A DNA stretch of 64,000 bases. Source: Diabrotica undecimpunctata. Taxonomy: Eukaryota; Arthropoda; Insecta; Coleoptera; Chrysomelidae. Location of the stretch: assembly GCF_040954645.1 (NCBI RefSeq), contig NC_092803.1, positions 14,881,230-14,945,229 on the forward strand, read 5' to 3'. Within the stretch, counting starts at the first letter, position 1. The number at the start of each line of letters is the position of its first letter. Below, one piece after another: positions 482-37,746 of this stretch. The notes under the pieces were generated by a model. The model worked only from the letters and a program-made list of their open reading frames with translations. It did not search any database and had not been told where the DNA came from. A program made the translations under genes and the position numbers.

Positions 482-1456
482 AATGATAACTCTTTATTGG
501 ATTTTGGGTGAACCGTCACAATGGAAAACCTTCGTTGGAAATAGGGTGTCGGAAATACAAAGGCTTTCTAATGGATATAGCTAGCATCATGTTGACTCGC
601 ATGATAACCCAGCCGACATAATTACGCGCGGATATGAACCAAAGTTATTAAACACTTCAAAATTGTGGTGGAATGGGCCACCATGGTTAGCTTCTCATTT
701 AAATTCATTTAAATGTTTCATTGCTAGAAGAGGTCTATGTAAAAATATGTATTCTGATAATGGAACTTCGTTGGGGCAAATAATCATTTGCAGGAGTTAT
801 ATTCATTTATGAATGATGCAACGGTAAAATCAAATTTTTTAGATTATTTTTCGGAACATAAGATTCATTGGCATTTTATTCCAGCTCACTCACCACATTT
901 TGGTGGCATCTGGGAATCAACTGTAAAATCGGTAAAGTTTCATATACGAAGGGTAATGTGTAATAATAAATTTACATATGACGAAATGTATACTTTGTTG
1001 ACGCAAATTGAGTCTCTCCTAAATTCCCGTCCTTTATTACCTCTGTCGGAAAGTCCAGAAGACCTTGGTGTACTCACCCCTGGACATTTTCTAATTGGAG
1101 CACCACTTGTAGCACTGCCACAAGAAGAGCTAACTAAAATAATTCCGAATAAGTTGAAACGGTATCATCACCTGACTCAGATAATTCAGAGTTTTTGGGT
1201 ACGCTGGTCACGTGAGTACCTCTCTTCACTTCAGCAGCGAACCAAATGGAGAACAGCAGCTGACAACGTGAAAATTGGATCATTGGTTATTATTCAAGAG
1301 GATGGTCTTCCTCCTACTAAATGGGAATTGGGTAGAATATTGCAACTACATGCTGGGACAGATAATGTTGTGCGGGTTGTGACTGTGCGCACTTCTAAAG
1401 GTGAATTCAAAAGGCCTTGTGTAAAGTTAGCCGTCCTGCCAATGGATGAACAATAA
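482..1456 (+). pseudogene. BEL/Pao retrotransposon Pol fragment (RNase H tail and integrase)
   Basis: The 5' part (about 520-660) encodes NPADIITRGYEP, the conserved junction between RNase H and integrase in BEL/Pao Pol. After a small break, 680-780 encodes the integrase SDNGT core. The open frame 788-1456 (222 aa) holds HSPHFGGIWESTVKSVK, then IESLLNSRPLLPLS, LTPGHFLIG, FWVRWSREYLSSLQQRTKW and a C-terminal WELGRILQLHAG motif. These are the integrase core and C-terminal domain in the usual order. Everything upstream (gag, protease, RT) is missing, so the copy is 5'-truncated and inactive. Family assignment is firm; the 5' limit is approximate. Confidence 0.85.
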
Positions 1457-3150: not shown

Positions 3151-3154
3151 GTAT

Positions 3155-3542
3155 TGTTGTGAATTTATTAAAAGGTTCAATATTTATAACACTTACGGAT
3201 TTAATTTATTTCTTTATTTATATTAACTTATCTGACAAATTTATATATATCCGTACGTTACAAATTCGCGAGCGCGAGTTCAGAATTCACTGTCTCTTCC
3301 AAATAAAATGTCCTTTATATATGCCATTGCCTTTACGCTAGAATCATCGAACAGCCTTCTCGATTAGCGGTGAAATTATAACGGTAAGGCAAACGGGTAT
3401 TTTTACATCGGCTCGACCGTTTCTGGAAGGTTCATTCAGGTAAATTTCTGCCGGCTAATAGAATACTCTCGTAAAATCTAAAAACAGAACACATTAGTCA
3501 TAATATTTACGGTTATTTTAGGCCAGGATAATTATCGTAACA
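3155..3542 (-). repeat. Gypsy copy 1 3' LTR
   Basis: It starts TGTTACGATA and ends TTCACAACA when read on the element strand. It is 388 bp and matches 9109-9496 by eye. A TATA box (catatataaagg) lies near 3312-3322. The R/U5 end is shared with copy 2 but the U3 is not. Confidence 0.93.
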
Positions 3543-6500
3543 TTGCCCCCCTCTTAAAAGATGGTTCCTCCTGGAACCTTGTCGGGACTGAAACCGGAAC
3601 TGTATGCTGGTATCGGCAACTGGACCCTCTTTTACAACTTCCAGTTGTATAAAAATGACAAGGGACGGTTTTCTCTCCGCACCAGTAACTATGCGGATTG
3701 CAACAGACTAACACCTGGACTTCGGTGTCTTTAAAGATCTCCTCCACCATATTTCGGATAACCCTCCAATCTAATTGGCGGCACTCCAACTTTGGCATGG
3801 CTAACTTTTGCACGTCGGACTCTAGTACGTGCTCTCTCAATTGAAGTAAGGCTTCCCACACATCTCGGTAGGTAGGTTGGTCACGGGCAGTGTCTTTTGT
3901 TACCAGGTAGAAAAGGTAACGTGATGCATCTTGGAGTTTCAAGGTTTTACCGGGAGCTGGCACCTGGCATTGAAGTTCTGCAACTCGACCAAACTTCCTT
4001 CGAAAGACGGATGCCAACCCTGGTGCGTCTTTGATACTGGCTGGGATGGTAAGGGCCAGCGAGTAGTCATCGGGGAGCGCGAGTAGATCTTGCTTTTCTT
4101 CAGTGGTAACACCATGTCTTGCTTTACCGGTACCTCCATAGGCACCCATGAATTCCTCAAACGTGAGGTCAGACACGTCTTGGACTTGGTTTACTTCCAC
4201 TTCTTCATCTACGTCGTGGTCACCTTCGAAAGACGCCAGCCGGTTATGGTGTACTATCATCGGCTTTCCCCTCGGAATCTTGCTTATTCGGTAGATGACA
4301 TCGTTGATCTTCTCCATGATGAGGTATGGACCTTCCCAAAACTGCTGCAATTTGGGAGAACAACCTTTTCGCTTCTTGGGATTATACAGCCATACTTTGT
4401 CGTTCTTCTTAAAGCAACCCTTTTCGGCTTGTGTATCGTACCGTTTCTTCATTCGGTCGCTAGCGATCTGAAGGTGGGAACGGACCAACTCATGTACATC
4501 GTCCATTCTTCTTCGTAATTCGATCACATAATCTTCACCTGCTACATCTTCTCCAGGTCGACACCCAAATTCTAGATCACAAGGTAGTCGCATTTCGCGT
4601 CCGAATAGGACTCTGGCTGGTGTCTGGCCCGTTGATTCGTTAACAGCAGATCTGTAGGCCATTGTGAAGAACGGAAGGTATTGGTCCCAGTCTCGCTGAT
4701 GATCGGACACCATCTTTGTCAAATACTTGCCAACTGTCCTATTCATTCGTTCTACCATACCATCCGATTGCGGATGATACGCGGTAGTTCTTGTTTTCTT
4801 CATGCCTAGTCTATCACATATTCCTTGGAATAGATCACTTTCAAAGTTCCTGCCTTGGTCACTATGGATCTCCAAAGGCACTCCAAATCGGCTGATATAT
4901 TCTTGGATCAACTTATCTGCAACGGTGGCGGCCTTCTGGTCTGGAAGTGCATAAATCTCGACCCACTTAGTGAAGTAATCCATTACTACCAACATGTACT
5001 TGCCCCCATTTTCACTTTCTGGAAATGGCCCTGCAATGTCCAAAGCTATTCTTTCAAACGGGCTTCCAACATTATATTGTCTCATAGGAGCTCTCCTTTT
5101 CCGGTGAGGCCCGTTACTCGTAGCACAAATAGTACATTTCTTACACCAGTCTTTTACGTCGTCGGAACTGTTCATCCAATAAAACCGTTCCCGAATTCGC
5201 TGAAGGGTTTTCCTTACACCAAAATGCCCTCCCGATGGACTGTCGTGTAACTGACGAAGTACTTCGGCTATTCTGCTCTTTGGGATCACCAACTGTCTTC
5301 TTTTCTCTGAACCGTCATCATTTTCCAGGACTCGTTTGAGCAAGCCATCTTCGATGATAAATGAGTCCCACTGGGCCCAATACGTCTTAACTACTGAGCA
5401 TAGGTTTGATATTTCCTGCCAAGGTGGTCGACGGTTTTCCTCTTTCCATTTTCGGATTTTCTGTATAACTGGATCTCTCTCTTGTTCTTCCCTTATCTTA
5501 GTAGGCGTCCAGTCGTCGTTGACAATCGTCGTTCTTAGCACTGCTGCTTCCTTGGATTCCGTTTTGTTGCAGTGAGGACACTCTGCTGGGCATGGCCTTC
5601 TGGAAAGAGAATCAGCGTTTCTGTGGCTAACTCCGGCTCGGTGCTCAATCTTAAAATCGTATTCTTGGAGTCGTTCGATCCACCTGGCTATCTGACCCTC
5701 TGGATTCTTAAACTGCATCAACCACTTAAGGGCGGCATGGTCGGTTCGGATTAAAAACTTCCTTCCATAGAGGTATTGATAGAAGTGCTCTACTGATTTC
5801 ACTACTGCCAGAAGTTCTCTTCTCGTGACGCAATAATTCCGCTCAGGTTTTGAAAGGACTTTACTAAAATATCCGAGGACTCGTTCCTGTCCTCCTTGAA
5901 TCTGAGACAGCACTCCTCCAATTCCCACGTTACTTGCATCCGTATCTAAGATGAACTCTCCTTCTGGCAGTGGATACCCCAAAATTGGTGCTGTTATTAA
6001 ATGCTTTTTCAACGTTTCAAAGGCATTTTGGCAGTCTATATCCCAGCGGTATTCTCTTGCTTCCTCTGTAAGTCGCGTTAATGGCTTAGCGATATCTGCA
6101 AACTTCTTAATAAACCTCCGGTAGTAAGTACATAGTCCAAGAAAACTTCTCACTTGATGTTTGTCAGTTGGTTTTGGCCATTCCTTAATGGAATCGATTT
6201 TTCCCTTATCCACGGCCACTCCTTCTTTACTGACTATATGACCCAGATAATTGACTTTACCTTGAAATAGCTGGCACTTTTTGGGGTTTAGCATCAATTG
6301 GGCAGCTTTAAGTCGATTAAAAACGTTTTCTAAATTCCTCAAATGATCTTCGAATGTCTCCCCCAAGACGATTATGTCATCTAAATAAACCAGGCATGTT
6401 TTCCAAGATAACCCTCTCAACACATTTTCCATAAGCCTCTCAAATGTCGCAGGAGCATTACAAAGTCCAAATGGCATAACGTTGAATTGCCACAATCCAG

Positions 6501-7689
6501 ATCCTGTGGTGAAGGCTGTCTTTTCTTTATCGACTGGGTCCATTTCTACCTGCCAGTATCCAGACTTCAAATCTAAAGTAGAAAACAATTTACTTCCAGC
6601 CAATGTGTCCAATGTGTCATCGATCCGAGGCAGAGGATAACTATCTTTCTTGGTAACGTTGTTCAGCAAACGGTAATCCACACAGAACCTCGTCGTTCCG
6701 TCTTTCTTCTTAACCAGGACCACCGGAGAGACCCATGGACTCGTAGAAGGTTCTATCACCCCGTCTTTCTTCATTTCCTGAACAATCGTTTCAGCTTCCT
6801 CTCTCTTCGCCTGTGGTAATCGTCGAGCTGTTTGACGAATTGGCTTAGCATTACCAGTATCAATTTTATGCTTAACAACGGTAGTTCTTCCCGTCTTTCC
6901 TCCTTTCGGTACGAAAATATCACGATACTGCCGAAGAAATTCCCTTAATTTCCTTTTCTCCATCTGATTTAGAGACTGTCCTGCAACTGCAACCATTTGG
7001 TCGAATTTGTCGTTGGAATTATCAGATGTTGTCGCCTGACGAATTATGGATGTCACAGGTACACAAGTTCCTACTTTTGTCTCTTTCTTTATGGTCACTG
7101 GGTAGTCGTTGACATTGATAAGTCTCACAGGAATTTCTTTAGCCGAAGTCACCAATTCCTTTCCAATTATGATTCCACGGCCAACCTCATCGTCGTGGTT
7201 CCAAGGCTCCATCATAACAGGTCTCCCTTCGTCTACAATTCCCTGTAGTCGCGCTACTATGATCGTTTCGCTTCTCGCAGGCACGACTGTATCTTCTGTA
7301 ATGGCTGCTTGCACAGTGTTGTCATTATGTGGATGGAGAAATACCTCCTCGTTGCCAACTTTGATTACCTTATTCTTAAAATCCAATTGGAATCCATGCA
7401 TATTCATTACGTCCATTCCTAATATAACATCCTCTTCGATGTCAGCAACTATAACAGTATGGACGAACTTTTCTGCTCCAATTCCCAATTGTACCTGGAT
7501 TTCTCCATGAATGTTAGCATTTTCACCTGTAGCGGTCCGAAGTCGCAACCTCGTTGGTAACAGTTTCTTTCGGCTGTTTATAACTGTCGGGCGTATAATG
7601 GTTCTGGTCGCTCCGGTATCCACCAACAACGTATGCTTTTTACCATTTATGTCTCCATCTACATATACACTATCTTCACGACATTTCAA
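3532..7689 (-). CDS. pol: Gypsy copy 1 Pol polyprotein with C-terminal macro-like domain and CCCH finger
   Basis: The 1385-codon frame holds, in order, an aspartic protease (DTG at 24-26), reverse transcriptase (FCVDYR near 335, YLDD at 435-438) and RNase H (TDAS near 583, Glu625, Asp650, Asp693). The integrase follows (His815/His822/Cys852/Cys855 zinc site, then Asp884, Asp944 and Glu980, spaced D-x59-D-x35-E), then a GPY/F-like module (WEGPYLIMEK, 1118-1127). After a linker, residues about 1203-1330 look like a macro domain of the TARG1/OARD1 type: LASVFRRKFG, YLFYLVTK, PTYRDVWEALLQL and LAMPKLECRQLDW. Residues 1344-1362 form a CCCH finger (C-x7-C-x5-C-x3-H). The frame opens inside gag, so the listed Met is only the first ATG; expression is probably by frameshifting from gag. 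No catalytic residue of PR, RT, RNase H or IN appears to be missing. Confidence 0.95.
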   Translation of the reverse strand: MKCREDSVYVDGDINGKKHTLLVDTGATRTIIRPTVINSRKKLLPTRLRLRTATGENANIHGEIQVQLGIGAEKFVHTVIVADIEEDVILGMDVMNMHGFQLDFKNKVIKVGNEEVFLHPHNDNTVQAAITEDTVVPARSETIIVARLQGIVDEGRPVMMEPWNHDDEVGRGIIIGKELVTSAKEIPVRLINVNDYPVTIKKETKVGTCVPVTSIIRQATTSDNSNDKFDQMVAVAGQSLNQMEKRKLREFLRQYRDIFVPKGGKTGRTTVVKHKIDTGNAKPIRQTARRLPQAKREEAETIVQEMKKDGVIEPSTSPWVSPVVLVKKKDGTTRFCVDYRLLNNVTKKDSYPLPRIDDTLDTLAGSKLFSTLDLKSGYWQVEMDPVDKEKTAFTTGSGLWQFNVMPFGLCNAPATFERLMENVLRGLSWKTCLVYLDDIIVLGETFEDHLRNLENVFNRLKAAQLMLNPKKCQLFQGKVNYLGHIVSKEGVAVDKGKIDSIKEWPKPTDKHQVRSFLGLCTYYRRFIKKFADIAKPLTRLTEEAREYRWDIDCQNAFETLKKHLITAPILGYPLPEGEFILDTDASNVGIGGVLSQIQGGQERVLGYFSKVLSKPERNYCVTRRELLAVVKSVEHFYQYLYGRKFLIRTDHAALKWLMQFKNPEGQIARWIERLQEYDFKIEHRAGVSHRNADSLSRRPCPAECPHCNKTESKEAAVLRTTIVNDDWTPTKIREEQERDPVIQKIRKWKEENRRPPWQEISNLCSVVKTYWAQWDSFIIEDGLLKRVLENDDGSEKRRQLVIPKSRIAEVLRQLHDSPSGGHFGVRKTLQRIRERFYWMNSSDDVKDWCKKCTICATSNGPHRKRRAPMRQYNVGSPFERIALDIAGPFPESENGGKYMLVVMDYFTKWVEIYALPDQKAATVADKLIQEYISRFGVPLEIHSDQGRNFESDLFQGICDRLGMKKTRTTAYHPQSDGMVERMNRTVGKYLTKMVSDHQRDWDQYLPFFTMAYRSAVNESTGQTPARVLFGREMRLPCDLEFGCRPGEDVAGEDYVIELRRRMDDVHELVRSHLQIASDRMKKRYDTQAEKGCFKKNDKVWLYNPKKRKGCSPKLQQFWEGPYLIMEKINDVIYRISKIPRGKPMIVHHNRLASFEGDHDVDEEVEVNQVQDVSDLTFEEFMGAYGGTGKARHGVTTEEKQDLLALPDDYSLALTIPASIKDAPGLASVFRRKFGRVAELQCQVPAPGKTLKLQDASRYLFYLVTKDTARDQPTYRDVWEALLQLREHVLESDVQKLAMPKLECRQLDWRVIRNMVEEIFKDTEVQVLVCCNPHSYWCGEKTVPCHFYTTGSCKRGSSCRYQHTVPVSVPTRFQEEPSFKRGAMLR
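3604..3660 (-). other. CCCH zinc finger at the C-terminus of gypsy copy 1 Pol
   Basis: Residues 1344-1362 read CHFYTTGSCKRGSSCRYQH, a C-x7-C-x5-C-x3-H pattern typical of RNA-binding CCCH fingers. It is followed by only about 20 residues to the stop. It is conserved in copy 2 (32825-32881). Confidence 0.8.
3702..4085 (-). other. Macro-like (ADP-ribose-binding fold) domain in gypsy copy 1 Pol
   Basis: Pol residues about 1203-1330 follow the order of strands and helices of the TARG1/OARD1 branch of macro domains: a DYSLAL strand, a DAPGLASVFRRKFG loop and helix where active members have a glycine-rich loop, a YLFYLVTK strand, PTYRDVWEALLQL helix, a KLAMP strand and an EVQVLVC strand at the end. 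The usual GCG-L-D turn after MP is replaced by ECRQLDW, two residues shorter, so the Asp used by hydrolytic members appears lost. Binding rather than hydrolysis is the likelier role. The fold assignment is by eye. Confidence 0.72.
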
Positions 7690-7760
7690 AGAAGCTATTA
7701 GTATGAGAGGGTCTTTGGAAAAGTTCTGGGTCGAAGCTGCCCCCCTAAGGCTGACCCGTT

Positions 7761-9038
7761 CTAGTTTTCCTGATGGTGAGTTTCTTGATTTGCGTCGTAC
7801 CTAGGGTGCTTACAGGAGCTTCGCACGTGTCCTATTTCGCCACAATTCCAGCATCTGATGGTCTTCGTTTTCTTATATGTCATGCTTTTCATCATATTAA
7901 CGAGCTGGTCAAGTTTATCTTCATCTCCTTCCTCTTTTACAGTCCTACCTTTACTGTACCCACCAGAGGCCTGCGTAGCTGACTCGTATTCGAGGGCGGC
8001 GGATAAGACATCAACCAGCGTCTTGTGACGAGCTAATCGTAGTGTTCTCTGCATTTCATGATCACGAAGACCATCAATAAACGTTTGAACGGCCAATTTT
8101 TCCATCATGTCTTCGGGAGCTGTTGGATAAGCATATCGTACTAATCTGGCAATATCTACCTCATATTCTTGAAGAGCCTCATCTTTCTTCTGTCTACGAT
8201 TTTTAAGCTGCGACTGATATACATGCTCCAAATGTTCGTGGCCATATCGCATATTTAACCTCTTCTTCAGTTGTTCGAAATCATCGGTCTCCTCTACTGC
8301 TATGGTCTGAAGCACATCTAAGGCATCTCCTCGAAGAGCGATAGTCAGGTTTACCGCCTTTTCTTTTTCAGACCATCCATTTGCTCTTGCGGCTGATTCG
8401 AACTGTTTCATGTAGTTGTTCCATGATGATTTTCCGTCGAAAGTTGGGACTTTAACATGAATAGAACCTCCACTTCCTTCAAATTTCGGCCGTGTCTCCA
8501 ACTTACATTTCGTCTCGTCTTCTTTTATCTCCACTGTAATTGGATTGTTTCCTCTCTCTGCTGTCCCGGTTTCCTCCATCTTCTTTTCCATCTCTTTCCA
8601 TATCTTTTCTTCGAAGGCCAACATATCGGCAGCAACTTGGTTTTTTAACGAAGATATTCTATCGTCCAGGGCAGACATCTCAGAAGTGACTTTAGAGATT
8701 TCCGAAGAGATGTTAGCAGAGACTTTGCTTTCCAGAGAAGAAATCTCGTTAGAAACTTTGCTTTCTAAAGAAGCGATGTCGCCGGATACTTTGGCTACAT
8801 CAGAAGAAACTTTCGAAATATCGTCAGAAACTTTGTTCTCCAATTTCGAAATCGACGAGATGACAGCATCATGTTTGTCTTCAAATATATAAGTCTCTGG
8901 ATCTAGTCCTTCTTCTAGCAAAGCGTTCTTTAGTCGTTGGACTAACTCAGCCTTTTTTCCGGTGGAAGATAATTCTCTGTCTTCAAGATGTCTTCTTAAA
9001 TTAGTCACTGTCAGCTCATAAATCGTAGCCATTTTCAC
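7761..9038 (-). CDS. gag: Gypsy copy 1 Gag with N-terminal SAP-like motif
   Basis: The frame is 425 codons; MATIYELTV, two codons in, is an equally good start. Residues about 5-40 match the SAP DNA-binding motif (LTVTNLRRHLEDRELSSTGK, then AELVQRL). Residues about 57-150 are a heptad-rich coiled coil with repeated LESKVS-type units. Residues about 185-350 are the retrotransposon capsid region (VKVPTFDGKSSWNNYMKQFE, GDALDVLQTI, FIDGLRDHEMQRTL). A CCHC zinc knuckle (CWNCGEIGHVRSSC, 396-409) lies near the end. The protein packages element RNA. The stop at 7761 overlaps the pol frame by about 40 nt. Confidence 0.93.
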   Translation of the reverse strand: MKMATIYELTVTNLRRHLEDRELSSTGKKAELVQRLKNALLEEGLDPETYIFEDKHDAVISSISKLENKVSDDISKVSSDVAKVSGDIASLESKVSNEISSLESKVSANISSEISKVTSEMSALDDRISSLKNQVAADMLAFEEKIWKEMEKKMEETGTAERGNNPITVEIKEDETKCKLETRPKFEGSGGSIHVKVPTFDGKSSWNNYMKQFESAARANGWSEKEKAVNLTIALRGDALDVLQTIAVEETDDFEQLKKRLNMRYGHEHLEHVYQSQLKNRRQKKDEALQEYEVDIARLVRYAYPTAPEDMMEKLAVQTFIDGLRDHEMQRTLRLARHKTLVDVLSAALEYESATQASGGYSKGRTVKEEGDEDKLDQLVNMMKSMTYKKTKTIRCWNCGEIGHVRSSCKHPRYDANQETHHQEN

Positions 9039-9086
9039 AATTTATTTTATATTCACTTGTATTATTATTATAAGTCTAATTTATGT

Positions 9087-9106
9087 TCGATCTCACTCTG
9101 ACACCA
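9087..9106 (-). promoter_or_regulatory. Gypsy copy 1 primer-binding site
   Basis: Two bases inside the 5' LTR, the minus strand reads TGGTGTCAGAGTGAGATCGA. It starts with TGG and matches the 3' end of an insect or animal tRNA-Leu imperfectly. Copy 2 has the better version, TGGTGTCAGAAGTGGGAT. The tRNA identity rests on recall of tRNA-Leu 3' ends. Confidence 0.6.
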
Positions 9107-9108
9107 TT

Positions 9109-9496
9109 TGTTGTGAATTTATTAAAAGGTTCAATATTTATAACACTTACGGATTTAATTTATTTCTTTATTTATATTAACTTATCTGACAAATTTATAT
9201 ATATCCGTACGTTACAAATTCGCGAGCGCGAGTTCAGAATTCACTGTCTCTTCCAAATAAAATGTCCTTTATATATGCCATTGCCTTTACGCTAGAATCA
9301 TCGAACAGCCTTCTCGATTAGCGGTGAAATTATAACGGTAAGGCAAACGGGTATTTTTACATCGGCTCGACCGTTTCTGGAAGGTTCATTCAGGTAAATT
9401 TCTGCCGGCTAATAGAATACTCTCGTAAAATCTAAAAACAGAACACATTAGTCATAATATTTACGGTTATTTTAGGCCAGGATAATTATCGTAACA
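9109..9496 (-). repeat. Gypsy copy 1 5' LTR
   Basis: This is a 388-bp LTR, visually identical to 3155-3542, flanked on the outside by GTAT (9497-9500), the target duplication. It carries the element promoter with a TATA box at about 9266-9276. Confidence 0.93.
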
Positions 9497-27765: not shown

Positions 27766-28086
27766 TGTTACGATAAATATACTGGCCTAACTTTTATGAC
27801 TAATTATTCTGTTTTATTGTAGAAATTTCGGTGGAAGTCTAGAACCAAAATTATGGTGAATGAGCCGGCCAAGCTTCTCGATCTTTCGATGCTGTTCTAG
27901 TATATCAGGATTTCGTATATAAATACAACATTTTTATATGGAGGGCAGTTAATTCTCAAGACCCGCGCACGCGAATTTGTCACGTACGGATATAATAAAT
28001 TATTGTCAGATAAGTTAAAATAAATAAAGAAATAAATTAAATCCGTAAGTGTTATAAATATTGAACCTTTTAATAAATTCACAACA
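27766..28086 (+). repeat. Gypsy copy 2 5' LTR
   Basis: Starts TGTTACGATA, ends TTCACAACA, 321 bp. TATA box tcgtatataaatac near 27913. The last about 110 bp match the copy 1 LTR, while the U3 does not. Confidence 0.93.
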
Positions 28087-28088
28087 AA

Positions 28089-28106
28089 TGGTGTCAGAAG
28101 TGGGAT
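28089..28106 (+). promoter_or_regulatory. Gypsy copy 2 primer-binding site
   Basis: TGGTGTCAGAAGTGGGAT starts two bases after the LTR and matches the 3' end of a tRNA-Leu as I recall it. In copy 1 the same site has lost one A and has a G-to-A change. Confidence 0.65.
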
Positions 28107-28159
28107 CGAACATAAATTAGACTTATAATAATAATACAAGTGAATACGTAAAATAAATT

Positions 28160-31100
28160 GTGAAAATGGCTACGATTTATGAGCTGACAGTGACTAATTT
28201 AAGAAGACATCTCGAAGACAGAGAATTAGCTTCTACCGGAAAAAAGGCTGAGTTAGTCCAACGACTAAAGAACGCTTTGCTAGAAGAAGGACTAGATCCA
28301 GAGACTTATATATTTGAAGATGCTGTCATCTCGTCGATTTCGAAATTAGAGAACAAAGTTTCCGGCGACATCGCATCATTGGAGAACAAAGTATCCGGCA
28401 ACATCGCTTCTTTAGAAAGCAAAGTTTCTAACGAGATTTCTTCTCTGGAAAGCAAAGTTTCTGCTAACATCTCTAAAGTCACTTCAGAGATATCTGCTCT
28501 TGACGATAGAGTGTCTTCGTTAAAAAACCAAGTTGCTGCCGATATGTTGGCCTTCGAAGAAAAGATTAAAGAGATGGAAAGGAAGATGGAGGAAACAGGG
28601 ACAGCAGAGAGAGGAAACAATCCAATTACAGTGGAGACAAAAGAAGAGGAGACGAAATGTAAGTTGGAAACACGGCCGAAATTTGAAGGAAGTGGAGGTT
28701 CTGTCCATGTGAAAGTCCCAACTTTCGATGGAAAATCGTCATGGAACAACTACATGAAACAGTTCGAATCAGCCGCAAGAGCAAATGGATGGTCTGAAAA
28801 AGAAAAGGCGGTAAACCTGACTATCGCTCTTCGAGGAGATGCCTTAGATGTGCTTCAGACCATAGCAGTAGAGGAGACCGATGATTTCGAACAACTGAAG
28901 AAGAGGTTAAATATGCGATATGGCCACGAACATTTGGAGCATGTATATCAGTCGCAGCTTAAAAATCGTAGACAGAAGAAAGATGAGGCTCTTCAAGAAT
29001 ATGAGGTAGATATTGCCAGATTAGTACGATATGCTTATCCAACAGCTCCCGAAGACATGATGGAAAAATTGGCCGTTCAAACGTTTATTGATGGTCTTCG
29101 TGATCATGAAATGCAGAGAACACTGCGATTAGCTCGTCACAAAACGCTGGTTGATGTCTTATCCGCCGCCCTCGAATACGAGTCAGCTACGCAGGCCTCT
29201 GGCGGGTACAGTAAAGTTAGGACTGTAAAAGAGGAAGGAGACGAAGATAAACTTGACCAGCTCTTTAATTTGATGAAAAGCATGACATGCAAGAAAAAGA
29301 AGACCATAAAATCAAGAAACTCACCATCAGGAAAACCAGAACGAGTCAACCTTAGGGAGGCAGCTTCGACCCGGAACTCTTCCAAAGACCCTCTCATACT
29401 AATAGCTTCTTTGAAATGTCGTGAAGATAGTGTATATGTAGATGGAGACATAAATGGTAAAAAGCATACGTTGTTGGTGGATACCGGAGCGACCAGAACC
29501 ATTATACGCCCGACAGTTATAAACAGCCGAAAGAAACTGTTACCAACGAGGTTGCGACTTCGGACCGCTACAGGTGAAAATGCCAACATTCATGGAGAAA
29601 TCCAGGTACAATTGGGAATTGGAGCAGAAAAGTTCGTCCATACTGTTATAGTTGCTGACATCGAAGAGGATGTTATATTAGGAATGGACGTAATGAATAT
29701 GCATGGATTCCAATTGGATTTTAAGAATAAGGTAATCAAAGTTGGCAACGAGGAGGTATTTCTCCATCCACATAATGATAACACTGTGCAAGCAGCCATT
29801 ACAGAAGATACAGTCGTGCCTGCGAGAAGCGAAACGATCATAGTAGCGCGGCTACAGGGATTTGTGGACGAAGGGAGACCTGTTATGATGGAGCCTTGGA
29901 ACCACGACGATGAGGTTGGCCGTGGAATCATAATTGGAAAGGAATTGGTGACTTCGGCTAAGGAAATTCCTGTGAGACTTATCAATGTCAACGACTACCC
30001 AGTGACCATAAAGAAAGAGACAAAAGTAGGAACTTGTGTACCTGTGACATCCATAATCCGTCAGGCGACAACATCTGATAATTCCAACGATAAATTCGAC
30101 CAAATGGTTGCAGTTGCAGGACAGTCTCTAAATCAGATGGAGAAAAGGAAATTAAGGGAATTTCTTCGGCAGTATCGTGATATTTTCGTACCGAAAGGAG
30201 GAAAGACGGGAAGAACTACGGTTGTTAAGCATAAAATTGATACTGGTAATGCTAAGCCAATTCGTCAAACAGCTCGACGATTACCACAGGCGAAAAGAGA
30301 GGAAGCTGAAACGATTGTTCAGGAAATGAAGAAAGACGGGGTGATAGAACCTTCTACGAGCCCATGGGTCTCTCCGGTGGTCCTGGTTAAGAAGAAAGAC
30401 GGAACGACGAGGTTCTGTGTGGATTACCGTTTGCTGAACAACGTTACCAAGAAAGATAGTTATCCTCTGCCTCGGATCGATGACACATTGGACACATTGG
30501 CTGGAAGTAAATTGTTTTCTACTTTGGATTTGAAGTCTGGATACTGGCAGGTAGAAATGGACCCAGTAGATAAAGAAAAGACAGCCTTCACCACAGGATC
30601 TGGATTGTGGCAATTCAACGTTATGCCATTTGGACTCTGTAATGCTCCTGCGACATTTGAGAGGCTTATGGAAAATGTGTTGAGAGGGTTATCTTGGAAA
30701 ACATGCCTGGTTTATTTAGATGACATAATCGTCTTGGGGGAGACATTCGAAGATCATTTGAGGAATTTAGAAAACGTTTTTAATCGACTTAAAGCTGCCC
30801 AATTGATGCTAAACCCCAAGAAGTGCCAGCTATTTCAAGGTAAAGTCAATTATCTGGGTCATATAGTCAGTAAAGAAGGAGTGGCCGTGGATAAGGGAAA
30901 AATCGATTCCATTAAGGAATGGCCAAAACCAACTGACAAACATCAAGTGAGAAGTTTTCTTGGACTATGTACTTACTACCGGAGGTTTATTAAGAAGTTT
31001 GCAGATATCGCTAAGCCATTAACGCGACTTACAGAGGAATCAAGAGAATACCGCTGGGATATAGACTGCCAAAATGCCTTTGAAACGTTGAAAAAGCATT

Positions 31101-32953
31101 TAATAACAGCACCAATTTTGGGGTATCCACTGCCAGAAGGAGAGTTCATCTTAGATACGGATGCAAGTAATGTGGGAATTGGAGGAGTGCTGTCTCAGAT
31201 TCCAAAGAGCAGAATAGCCGAAGTACTTCGTCAGTTACACGACAGTCCATCGGGAGGGCATTTTGGTGTAAGGAAAACCCTTCAGCGAATTCGGGAACGG
31301 TTTTATTGGATGAACAGTTCCGACGACGTGAAAGACTGGTGTAAGAAATGTACTATTTGTGCTACGAGTAACGGGCCTCACCGGAAAAGGAGAGCTCCTA
31401 TGAGACAATATAATGTTGGAAGCCCGTTTGAAAGAATAGCTTTGGACATCGCTGGGCCATTTCCAGAAAGTGAAAATGGAGGCAAGTACATGCTGGTAGT
31501 AATGGATTACTTCAGTAAGTGGGTCGAGATTTACGCACTTCCAGACCAGAAGGCCGCCACCGTTGCAGATAAGTTGATCCAAGAATATATCAGCCGATTT
31601 GGAGTGCCTTTGGAGATCCATAGTGACCAAGGCAGGAACTTCGAAAGCGATCTATTCCAAGGAATATGTGATAGACTAGGCATGAAGAAAACAAGAACTA
31701 CAGCATATCATCCGCAATCTGATGGTATGGTAGAACGGATGAATAGGACAGTTGGCAAATATTTGACAAAGATGGTGTCCGATCATCAGCGAGACTGGGA
31801 CCAATACCTTCCGTTCTTCACAATGGCCTACAGATCTGCTGTTAACGAATCAACAGGCCAGACACCAGCGAAAGTCCTATTCGGACGCGAAATGCGACTA
31901 CCTTGTGATCTAGAGTTTGGGTGTCGACCTGGAGAAGATGTAGCAGGTGAAGATTATGTGATCGAATTACGAAGAAGAATGGACGATGTACATGAGTTGG
32001 TCCGTTCCCACCTTCAGATCGCTAGCGACCGAATGAAGAAACGGTACGATACACAAGCCGAAAAGGGTTGCTTTAAGAAGAACGACAAAGTATGGCTGTA
32101 TAATCCCAAGAAGCGAAAAGGTTGTTCTCCCAAATTGCAGCAGTTTTGGGAAGGTCCATACCTCATCATGGAGAAGATCAACGATGTCATCTACCGAATA
32201 AGCAAGATTCCGAGGGGAAAGCCGATGATAGTACACCATAACCGGTTGGCATCTTTCGAAGGTGACCACGACGTAGATGAAGAAGTGGAAGTAAACCAAG
32301 TCCAAGATGTGTCTGACCTCACGTTTGAGGAATTCATGGGTGCCTATGGAGGTACCGGTAAAGTGAGACATGGTGTTACCACTGAAGAAAAGCAAGATCT
32401 ACTCGCGCTCCCCGATGACTACTCGCTGGCCCTTACCATCCCGGCCAGTATCAAAGACGCATCAGGGTTGGCATCCGTCTTTCGAAGGAAGTTTGGTCGA
32501 GTTGCAGAACTTCAATGCCAAGTGCCAGCGTCCGGTAAAACCTTGAAACTCCAAGATGCATCACGTTACCTTTTCTACCTGGTAACAAAAGACACTGCCC
32601 GTGACCAACCTACCTACCGAGATGTATGGGAAGCCTTACTTCAATTGAGAGGGCACGTACTAGAGTCCGACGTGCAAAAGTTAGCCATGCCAAAGTTGGA
32701 GTGCCGCCAATTAGATTGGAGGGTTATCCGAAATATGGTGGAGGAGATCTTTAAAGACACCGAAGTCCAGGTGTTAGTCTGTTGCAATCCGCATAGTTAC
32801 TGGTGCGGAGAGAAAACCGTCCCTTGTCATTTTTATACAACTGGAAGTTGTAAAAGAGGGTCCAGTTGCCGATACCAGCATACAGTTCCGGTTCCAGTCC
32901 CGACAAGGTTCCAGGAGGAACCATCTTTTAAGAGGGGGGCAATGTTACGATAA
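28160..32953 (+). CDS. gag-pol: Gypsy copy 2 Gag-Pol fusion protein (lacks zinc knuckle and RNase H)
   Basis: A single 1597-codon frame. Residues about 5-40 are the SAP-like motif, followed by a coiled coil shortened relative to copy 1 and the capsid region. The protease (VDTGATRT) is at about residue 438 and RT (YLDD) at about 851. The integrase follows (HHCC site, catalytic D-D-E present), then a GPY/F-like module, a macro-like domain (about 1412-1542) and a CCCH finger (about 1556-1574). Two deletions define it. Around 29308 a net loss of 65 bp removes the CCHC knuckle and also brings gag into the pol frame. Around 31200 the frame jumps from GIGGVLSQI straight to PKSRIAEV, losing Glu, Asp and Asp of the RNase H active site. 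Loss of RNase H should block self-sufficient reverse transcription, so I infer dependence on a partner. Confidence 0.93.
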   Translation: MKMATIYELTVTNLRRHLEDRELASTGKKAELVQRLKNALLEEGLDPETYIFEDAVISSISKLENKVSGDIASLENKVSGNIASLESKVSNEISSLESKVSANISKVTSEISALDDRVSSLKNQVAADMLAFEEKIKEMERKMEETGTAERGNNPITVETKEEETKCKLETRPKFEGSGGSVHVKVPTFDGKSSWNNYMKQFESAARANGWSEKEKAVNLTIALRGDALDVLQTIAVEETDDFEQLKKRLNMRYGHEHLEHVYQSQLKNRRQKKDEALQEYEVDIARLVRYAYPTAPEDMMEKLAVQTFIDGLRDHEMQRTLRLARHKTLVDVLSAALEYESATQASGGYSKVRTVKEEGDEDKLDQLFNLMKSMTCKKKKTIKSRNSPSGKPERVNLREAASTRNSSKDPLILIASLKCREDSVYVDGDINGKKHTLLVDTGATRTIIRPTVINSRKKLLPTRLRLRTATGENANIHGEIQVQLGIGAEKFVHTVIVADIEEDVILGMDVMNMHGFQLDFKNKVIKVGNEEVFLHPHNDNTVQAAITEDTVVPARSETIIVARLQGFVDEGRPVMMEPWNHDDEVGRGIIIGKELVTSAKEIPVRLINVNDYPVTIKKETKVGTCVPVTSIIRQATTSDNSNDKFDQMVAVAGQSLNQMEKRKLREFLRQYRDIFVPKGGKTGRTTVVKHKIDTGNAKPIRQTARRLPQAKREEAETIVQEMKKDGVIEPSTSPWVSPVVLVKKKDGTTRFCVDYRLLNNVTKKDSYPLPRIDDTLDTLAGSKLFSTLDLKSGYWQVEMDPVDKEKTAFTTGSGLWQFNVMPFGLCNAPATFERLMENVLRGLSWKTCLVYLDDIIVLGETFEDHLRNLENVFNRLKAAQLMLNPKKCQLFQGKVNYLGHIVSKEGVAVDKGKIDSIKEWPKPTDKHQVRSFLGLCTYYRRFIKKFADIAKPLTRLTEESREYRWDIDCQNAFETLKKHLITAPILGYPLPEGEFILDTDASNVGIGGVLSQIPKSRIAEVLRQLHDSPSGGHFGVRKTLQRIRERFYWMNSSDDVKDWCKKCTICATSNGPHRKRRAPMRQYNVGSPFERIALDIAGPFPESENGGKYMLVVMDYFSKWVEIYALPDQKAATVADKLIQEYISRFGVPLEIHSDQGRNFESDLFQGICDRLGMKKTRTTAYHPQSDGMVERMNRTVGKYLTKMVSDHQRDWDQYLPFFTMAYRSAVNESTGQTPAKVLFGREMRLPCDLEFGCRPGEDVAGEDYVIELRRRMDDVHELVRSHLQIASDRMKKRYDTQAEKGCFKKNDKVWLYNPKKRKGCSPKLQQFWEGPYLIMEKINDVIYRISKIPRGKPMIVHHNRLASFEGDHDVDEEVEVNQVQDVSDLTFEEFMGAYGGTGKVRHGVTTEEKQDLLALPDDYSLALTIPASIKDASGLASVFRRKFGRVAELQCQVPASGKTLKLQDASRYLFYLVTKDTARDQPTYRDVWEALLQLRGHVLESDVQKLAMPKLECRQLDWRVIRNMVEEIFKDTEVQVLVCCNPHSYWCGEKTVPCHFYTTGSCKRGSSCRYQHTVPVPVPTRFQEEPSFKRGAMLR
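32393..32785 (+). other. Macro-like domain in gypsy copy 2
   Basis: Same module as in copy 1 with a few changes (DASGLASVFRRKFG, PASGKTLKL, QLRGHVLESD). The motif spacing and the shortened ECRQLDW turn are unchanged, so the region is maintained in both copies. Confidence 0.72.
32825..32881 (+). other. CCCH zinc finger in gypsy copy 2
   Basis: Identical in pattern to copy 1 (C-x7-C-x5-C-x3-H) and immediately after the macro-like domain. Confidence 0.8.
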
Positions 32954-33263
32954 ATATACTGGCCTAACTTTTATGACTAATTATTCTGTTTTATTGTAGA
33001 AATTTCGGTGGAAGTCTAGAACCAAAATTATGGTGAATGAGCCGGCCAAGCTTCTCGATCTTTCGATGCTGTTCTAGTATATCAGGATTTCGTATATAAA
33101 TACAACATTTTTATATGGAGGGCAGTTAATTCTCAAGACCCGCGCACGCGAATTTGTCACGTACGGATATAATAAATTATTGTCAGATAAGTTAAAATAA
33201 ATAAAGAAATAAATTAAATCCGTAAGTGTTATAAATATTGAACCTTTTAATAAATTCACAACA
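32943..33263 (+). repeat. Gypsy copy 2 3' LTR
   Basis: Visually identical to 27766-28086, preceded by the polypurine tract aagaggggggcaa and followed by ATAC. Confidence 0.93.
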
Positions 33264-33269
33264 ATACAT

Positions 33270-36600: not shown

Positions 36601-36847
36601 GACTATTTTGTTATTGCAGTCAAGACAATCATTTTTTGTATATTAGCAATTCTCATTTACATTAGACTGATGCTGATCATGGATCCTTTTTCTTAAATAG
36701 CGTGTATTATTTTTTCTTGTCGGCACTTGCAATTAAAATATTTTAGTTTTGTTTAGTACTAAATACATCTTTACTAAATTTTGGTTACTTTATGTTTTAT
36801 CCTGTTGTTTCTATTTAATCAAATTTTTATAGTTTGGTTTGTTTTAG

Positions 36848-37746
36848 GTATTTCGCAAAAAAAATTATTGGAAATGGAAGGTATGAAAAGAAAACTTCAT
36901 ACATGTGAAATTTGTTTTAGGCAGTTGACTACAGCAAATAGTTTGAAAGTTCATTTGAGAATTCACACTGGAGAAAAATCATACCAGTGTGTAGTTTGCT
37001 TTAAGCAGTTTAATCGGAAATATTCTTTGTATCAACATTCGAAACTGCACCTTAAGGAAAAGCCGTACAAGTGTGAAATTTGTTTTAAGCAATTTTATAC
37101 AGCAAGTAATTTGAAAATACATTTGAGAGTGCACACTGGAGAAAAGCCTCACAAATGTGAAATTTGTTTTAAGCAGTTTACTACAGCATCTAATTTAAAA
37201 CAACATTTCAGAGTGCACACTGGAGAAAAACCTTACAAGTGTGAAATTTGTTTTAAGCAATTTAGTCAAGCAGATAATTTGAAAGCACATTTGAGAGTGC
37301 ACACTGGAGAAAAATCTTATAAGTGTGAAATTTGTTTTAGGCAGTTGACTACAGCAAATAGTTTGAAAGTTCATTTGAGAATTCACACTGGAGAAAAATC
37401 ATACCAGTGTGTAGTTTGCTTTAAGCAGTTTAATCGGAAATATTCTTTGTATCTACATTCGAAACTGCACCTTGAGGAACAGTCGTACAAGTGTGAAATT
37501 TGTTTTAAGCGATTTAGTCAAGCATGTGAATTGAAAATACATTTGAGAGTGCACACTGGAGAAAAGCCTCACAAATGTGAAATTTGTTTCAAGCAGTTTA
37601 CTACAGCAGGTAATTTGAAAATTCATTTGAGAGTGCACACAGGAGAAAAATCTTATAAGTGTGAAATTTGTTTTAAGCAATTTAGTCGAGCAGATAATTT
37701 GAAAGTACATTTGAGAGTGCACACTGGAAAAACCTTAAAAGTGTGA
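36848..37746 (+). CDS. C2H2 zinc-finger exon with ten fingers
   Basis: A tttgttttag acceptor precedes 36848; the exon enters in phase 1 and encodes [12 protein letters not shown] and then ten consecutive C2H2 fingers joined by HTGEK linkers, ending at a TGA at 37744. Phase 1 fits the leader exon at 23799-24078. Fingers 1-5 and 6-10 are duplicates 420 bp apart. After the stop, a degraded eleventh finger can be read in another frame (about 37740-37820), so the C-terminus looks shortened by a frameshift. Probable nuclear DNA-binding regulator; target unknown. Confidence 0.85.
36896..37735 (+). repeat. 420-bp tandem duplication inside the zinc-finger exon
   Basis: 36901-36960 and 37321-37380 differ at only two bases near the start, and 36961-37020 is identical to 37381-37440. 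The five-finger order repeats in register with the 84-bp finger period. Confidence 0.9.

Follow-up and report, generated by a model that had tools for sequence, protein, structure and literature searches.

A TARG1-related macro fold and a CCCH zinc finger behind the integrase of a Ty3/Gypsy retrotransposon in Diabrotica undecimpunctata

We analysed a 64,000-nucleotide stretch of the beetle Diabrotica undecimpunctata (contig NC_092803.1, positions 14,881,230 to 14,945,229 of the forward strand; hereafter the window), which holds two copies of a Ty3/Gypsy long terminal repeat (LTR) retrotransposon. In both copies, the Pol protein of this element has a C-terminal extension, directly behind the integrase C-terminal domain, that consists of a macro fold related to human TARG1 and one CCCH zinc finger. 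A macro-like domain after the integrase of a Ty3/Gypsy Pol had been proposed in a first-pass annotation of the window and is borne out by phmmer searches, a profile of relatives from viral contigs and the fold of a structure model; the CCCH finger, which adjoins the macro domain, was absent from that annotation. The parts of the extension are as follows.

3700..4110, minus strand: TARG1/ALC1-like macro domain, copy 1 (phmmer, NCBIfam, viral-contig profile, structure model)
about 32375..32785, plus strand: macro domain, copy 2 (motifs; profile match at 32378-32782)
3604..3672, minus strand: CCCH zinc finger, copy 1 (C-x7-C-x5-C-x3-H)
32813..32881, plus strand: CCCH finger, copy 2 (residues as in copy 1; position converted by hand)

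Identity of the Pol extension

The minus strand encodes the macro feature of copy 1, which closes the pol frame; the plus-strand translation of 3702-4085 is broken by stops. All four motifs that the first-pass annotation had quoted for 3702..4085 are present on the minus strand, namely LASVFRRKFG (3988-4017), YLFYLVTK (3895-3918), PTYRDVWEALLQL (3838-3876) and LAMP (3793-3804). The same module, which had been reported at 32393-32785 in copy 2, was recovered at about 32375-32785.

The product of 3700-4158 was searched with phmmer against 177,635 distinct PDB sequences and matched five human TARG1/C6orf130 sequences (E = 1e-22 to 4.5e-22), with the next match at E = 1.8; identity to human TARG1 was 36%. 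A macro profile, built from 12 IMG/VR viral-contig relatives without window sequences, picked only the two Pol frames (E = 1.8e-21 and 1.9e-21) among 1092 six-frame pieces of the window, and the 1092 reversed pieces yielded zero matches up to E = 10. Together, the PDB E-values and the profile with its reversed control reject a chance resemblance to TARG1. A host gene merely adjoining the element is rejected too: in both copies, the LTRs enclose the module, and it is in frame with the integrase.

The copy 1 finger matched PF00642 (E = 8.2e-7, 29.2 bits, cut-off 20.5), and its best PDB chain was CPSF4 (6fuw, E = 9.9e-6). Pfam scans of the tail revealed zero chromodomains behind the integrase.

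Active site, structure model and constraint

In an alignment anchored on K84, the equivalents of TARG1 D20 and K84 were retained in the element, and both glycine loops were changed. TARG1 MGAG (40-43) corresponds to DAPG in copy 1 and DASG in copy 2, and GCGLD (121-125) corresponds to EC--R, with E at G121, G123 and L124 absent, and R at the D125 position; the alignment at 121-125 could slip by one residue, and as made it places no acidic residue at 125. Among the 12 viral-contig relatives, GxG was present in 12/12, the catalytic D in 10/12 and the K in 11/12. TARG1-like proteins are encoded on a series of IMG/VR viral contigs (L001, L006-L020), and the L001 protein is 47% identical to human TARG1.

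In a passage of PMC7050489, the catalytic dyad of TARG1 consists of Lys84 and residue 125, the latter printed as Glu125, unlike the D found there in the PDB TARG1 sequence. According to the same passage, SCO6735 is an ALC1-like hydrolase although it lacks both residues discussed. A passage of PMC4245714 reports that all essential residues are kept in few viral TARG1-like proteins and that the distribution of TARG1 in invertebrates is patchy. Judged by sequence, TARG1-type hydrolysis has likely, though not provably, been lost in the element domain. Since key parts of the TARG1 active site are gone, binding is more likely than cleavage. The ADP-ribose domain of the first-pass annotation thus stands as a TARG1-type fold, but ADP-ribose binding or hydrolysis by it is weakened by the loop changes.

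According to the first-pass annotation, its proposal would fall if profile searches gave no macro hit and the predicted structure lacked the macro fold; the results do not refute it on these grounds. The predicted structure kept the macro fold, and fold comparison also matched viral macro domains (alphavirus nsP3, Kadipiro virus VP8 and insect virga/negev-like viruses). The profile searches were divided: besides the TARG1 matches in PDB and the viral-contig profile, NCBIfam gave a match to DarG, ALC1-like macro domain (E = 2.1e-7, 30.6 bits, far under the model cut-off of 250), but Pfam Macro was silent.

Several observations weigh against the macro identity of the domain or against a role in binding. 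Pfam Macro (PF01661) matched neither copy, even at E ≤ 10; this silence is not decisive, because the model is weak for the class, and a human TARG1 fragment scored only 5.7 bits over its cut-off (2.9e-6, 27.7 bits, cut-off 22). The model alignment contained TARG1 relatives, and without them the fold was poor (pLDDT 37); with them, confidence was below 50 at residues 39-47 and 57-78. Since both TARG1 glycine loops are altered, ADP-ribose may not bind. Constraint was estimated from copy 1 versus copy 2 (one pair, small counts). The macro part (137 codons) had 3 nonsynonymous and 4 synonymous changes (w 0.22), and purifying selection on it was not significant (one-sided p = 0.0545 versus neutrality). 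The whole 205-codon tail had 4 of each (w 0.29, p = 0.086; one codon with two changes omitted), compared with 2 nonsynonymous and 20 synonymous changes in the integrase part (379 codons, w 0.02) and 2 and 15 across protease, reverse transcriptase (RT) and RNase H (589 codons, w 0.04). Counted by changed codon, 5/9 were nonsynonymous in the tail versus 2/22 in the integrase part (Fisher, 5:4 versus 2:20, p = 0.012). From these counts, the tail looks less constrained than the rest of Pol.

Candidate functions and known relatives

We tentatively favour, at somewhat less than even probability, a macro domain that serves as a non-catalytic binding tail on the integrase or Gag-Pol and is no longer a TARG1-type hydrolase. 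The domain would be made in low (Gag-Pol) amounts together with the integrase and would tether the integrase or the particle to a host partner, for which an ADP-ribosylated chromatin protein, poly(ADP-ribose) (PAR) or a nucleic-acid end are candidates; the zinc finger could contribute an RNA contact. Given the descent of the domain, ADP-ribose would be the obvious candidate ligand, although the loop changes weaken its case. A more specific reading, in which the integrase of a Ty3/Gypsy lineage carries a TARG1-derived ADP-ribose/PAR reader and an RNA-binding finger and thereby directs insertions towards DNA breaks or chromatin marked by PARP, is quite improbable.

The loop changes and the weaker constraint described above would also suit a captured stretch of coding sequence whose presence at the end of Pol is tolerated and which is either decaying or a mere spacer. 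Both copies, however, keep the frame intact, the core is still as similar to human TARG1 as given above, and the fold is retained in the model; we regard a passenger of this kind as unlikely. A role led by the CCCH finger, binding element RNA or cleavage/polyadenylation signals, with the macro fold as an RNA/DNA surface for packaging or reverse transcription, is distinctly unlikely: CPSF4 is the best PDB likeness of the finger, and a passage of PMC7050489 describes the macro-domain antitoxin DarG as working on DNA, but CCCH fingers are short and mutually alike, an E of 9.9e-6 does not settle the partner, and Gag brings its own RNA-directed zinc knuckle. The least probable explanation considered is an active eraser that strips ADP-ribose from host silencing factors, element proteins or nucleic-acid ends and so counters PARP/SIRT6-type restriction. 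K84 and D20 are retained, and passages of PMC7050489 and PMC4695847 report, respectively, SCO6735 activity as noted above with TARG1 substrates that include proteins and nucleic-acid ends, and L1 silencing via SIRT6 mono-ADP-ribosylation of KAP1; against this stand the R at the D125 position, which is half of the catalytic dyad in PMC7050489, and the altered GCG and MGAG loops.

The element domain resembles human TARG1/OARD1 (C6orf130; ALC1-like macro class) in sequence, fold and K84. TARG1, however, is a small stand-alone protein, whereas the element domain is fused to Pol and differs at the D125 position and in the GCG/MGAG loops. Chromoviruses are Ty3/Gypsy elements with a chromodomain after the integrase, which is thought to guide integration. 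Their extra module likewise lies directly behind the integrase, but the present element has a macro domain and a CCCH finger instead of a chromodomain. The viral macro domains matched above are alike in fold but belong to RNA viruses and other protein contexts; according to the abstract of PMC7729036, viral macro domains counter ADP-ribose signalling.

Among the titles and abstract openings listed from open-licence PubMed Central, no macro domain in a Gypsy Pol was found, and a passage on fish retroviruses was the sole relevant precedent. In that passage (PMC4977317, citing Basta et al. 2009), fish Epsilon-like retroviruses can include extra open reading frames (ORFs) with macro domains. These teleost retroviruses are also retroelements carrying a macro domain; as far as a comparison by description goes, their macro genes are additional ORFs, whereas here the domain is fused to the C-terminus of a Ty3/Gypsy Pol. 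Chromodomains are integrase tails that help to select the insertion site. A tail with a macro fold would add another type and could connect retrotransposition with ADP-ribose signalling, which reportedly silences L1 via SIRT6 and KAP1 (PMC4695847). Even if the domain were inert, it would still be a clear gene capture by a young element.

The two copies and other features of the window

The element is a Ty3/Gypsy LTR retrotransposon (Metaviridae), as seen in the LTR pairs around gag and pol, the order of the Pol domains and the RT similarity. Domain coordinates from Pfam (gag, integrase) were converted by hand from protein matches.

3154-9496, minus strand: copy 1, Ty3/Gypsy LTR retrotransposon
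3154..3542, minus strand: 3' LTR, copy 1 (389 bp; 100% identity to 9108-9496 by self-BLAST of the window)
9108..9496, minus strand: 5' LTR, copy 1 (389 bp; self-BLAST)
7761..9038, minus strand: gag ORF, copy 1 (Pfam)
about 8919-9014, minus strand: SAP in Gag (PF02037, E = 2.1e-7)
about 8061-8345, minus strand: Retrotrans_gag in Gag (Pfam)
about 7806-7856, minus strand: CCHC knuckle in Gag (Pfam)
3532..7689, minus strand: pol ORF, copy 1 (1385 codons, uninterrupted)
4234..5286, minus strand: integrase, copy 1 (Pfam)
5113-5286, minus strand: H2C2 of the integrase (Pfam)
4771-5058, minus strand: rve core of the integrase (Pfam)
4234-4332, minus strand: p58 C-terminal domain of the integrase (Pfam)
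27766-33264, plus strand: copy 2
27766..28087, plus strand: 5' LTR, copy 2 (322 bp; 100% identity to 32943-33264)
32943..33264, plus strand: 3' LTR, copy 2 (322 bp)
28160..32953, plus strand: single gag-pol frame, copy 2 (one ORF including the tail)

The element was inserted recently. The pol frame of copy 1, open from position 7800, lies at -1 relative to gag and overlaps its end (relation determined by hand); the 3' LTR contributes the final bases of pol together with its stop codon (3532-3534). Pfam matched protease, RT, RNase H and integrase in four pieces and in that order, and the nearest solved structure to the RT was Ty3 (4ol8, E = 2.3e-95; 7q5b is also Ty3). SAP, a DNA/chromatin-binding module, opens Gag of copy 1; a SAP domain is not known to be part of Gypsy Gag. 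The primer site by the 5' LTR (9068-9107; 28088-28127), TGGTGTCAGA..., resembles the 3' end of a tRNA-Leu, and this hints at Mdg3 as a candidate clade.

Copy 2 has two deletions: one of about 66 bp, where gag meets pol, removes the zinc knuckle region of gag, and one of about 600 bp takes out most of RNase H and the sequence from there to the integrase. Because its LTRs are identical, it may, despite these deletions, have been mobilised in trans by other copies. The flanking 4-bp duplications are GTAT for copy 1 and ATAC for copy 2, both ATAC in element orientation (read by eye), and may reflect a target preference, with two sites as the sample. The LTRs of copy 1 (389 bp) and copy 2 (322 bp) align with each other for only some 160 bp, at about 90% identity, whereas the pol parts are 98-99% alike; this mismatch suggests that LTRs were exchanged between subfamilies.

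Elsewhere in the window, an ORF at 788-1456 (plus strand) contains DUF5641 (E = 6.3e-37) and resembles the integrase end of a BEL/Pao element. At 36781-37746 (plus strand) lies a one-frame C2H2 zinc finger array with internal DNA repeats about 76-91% identical.
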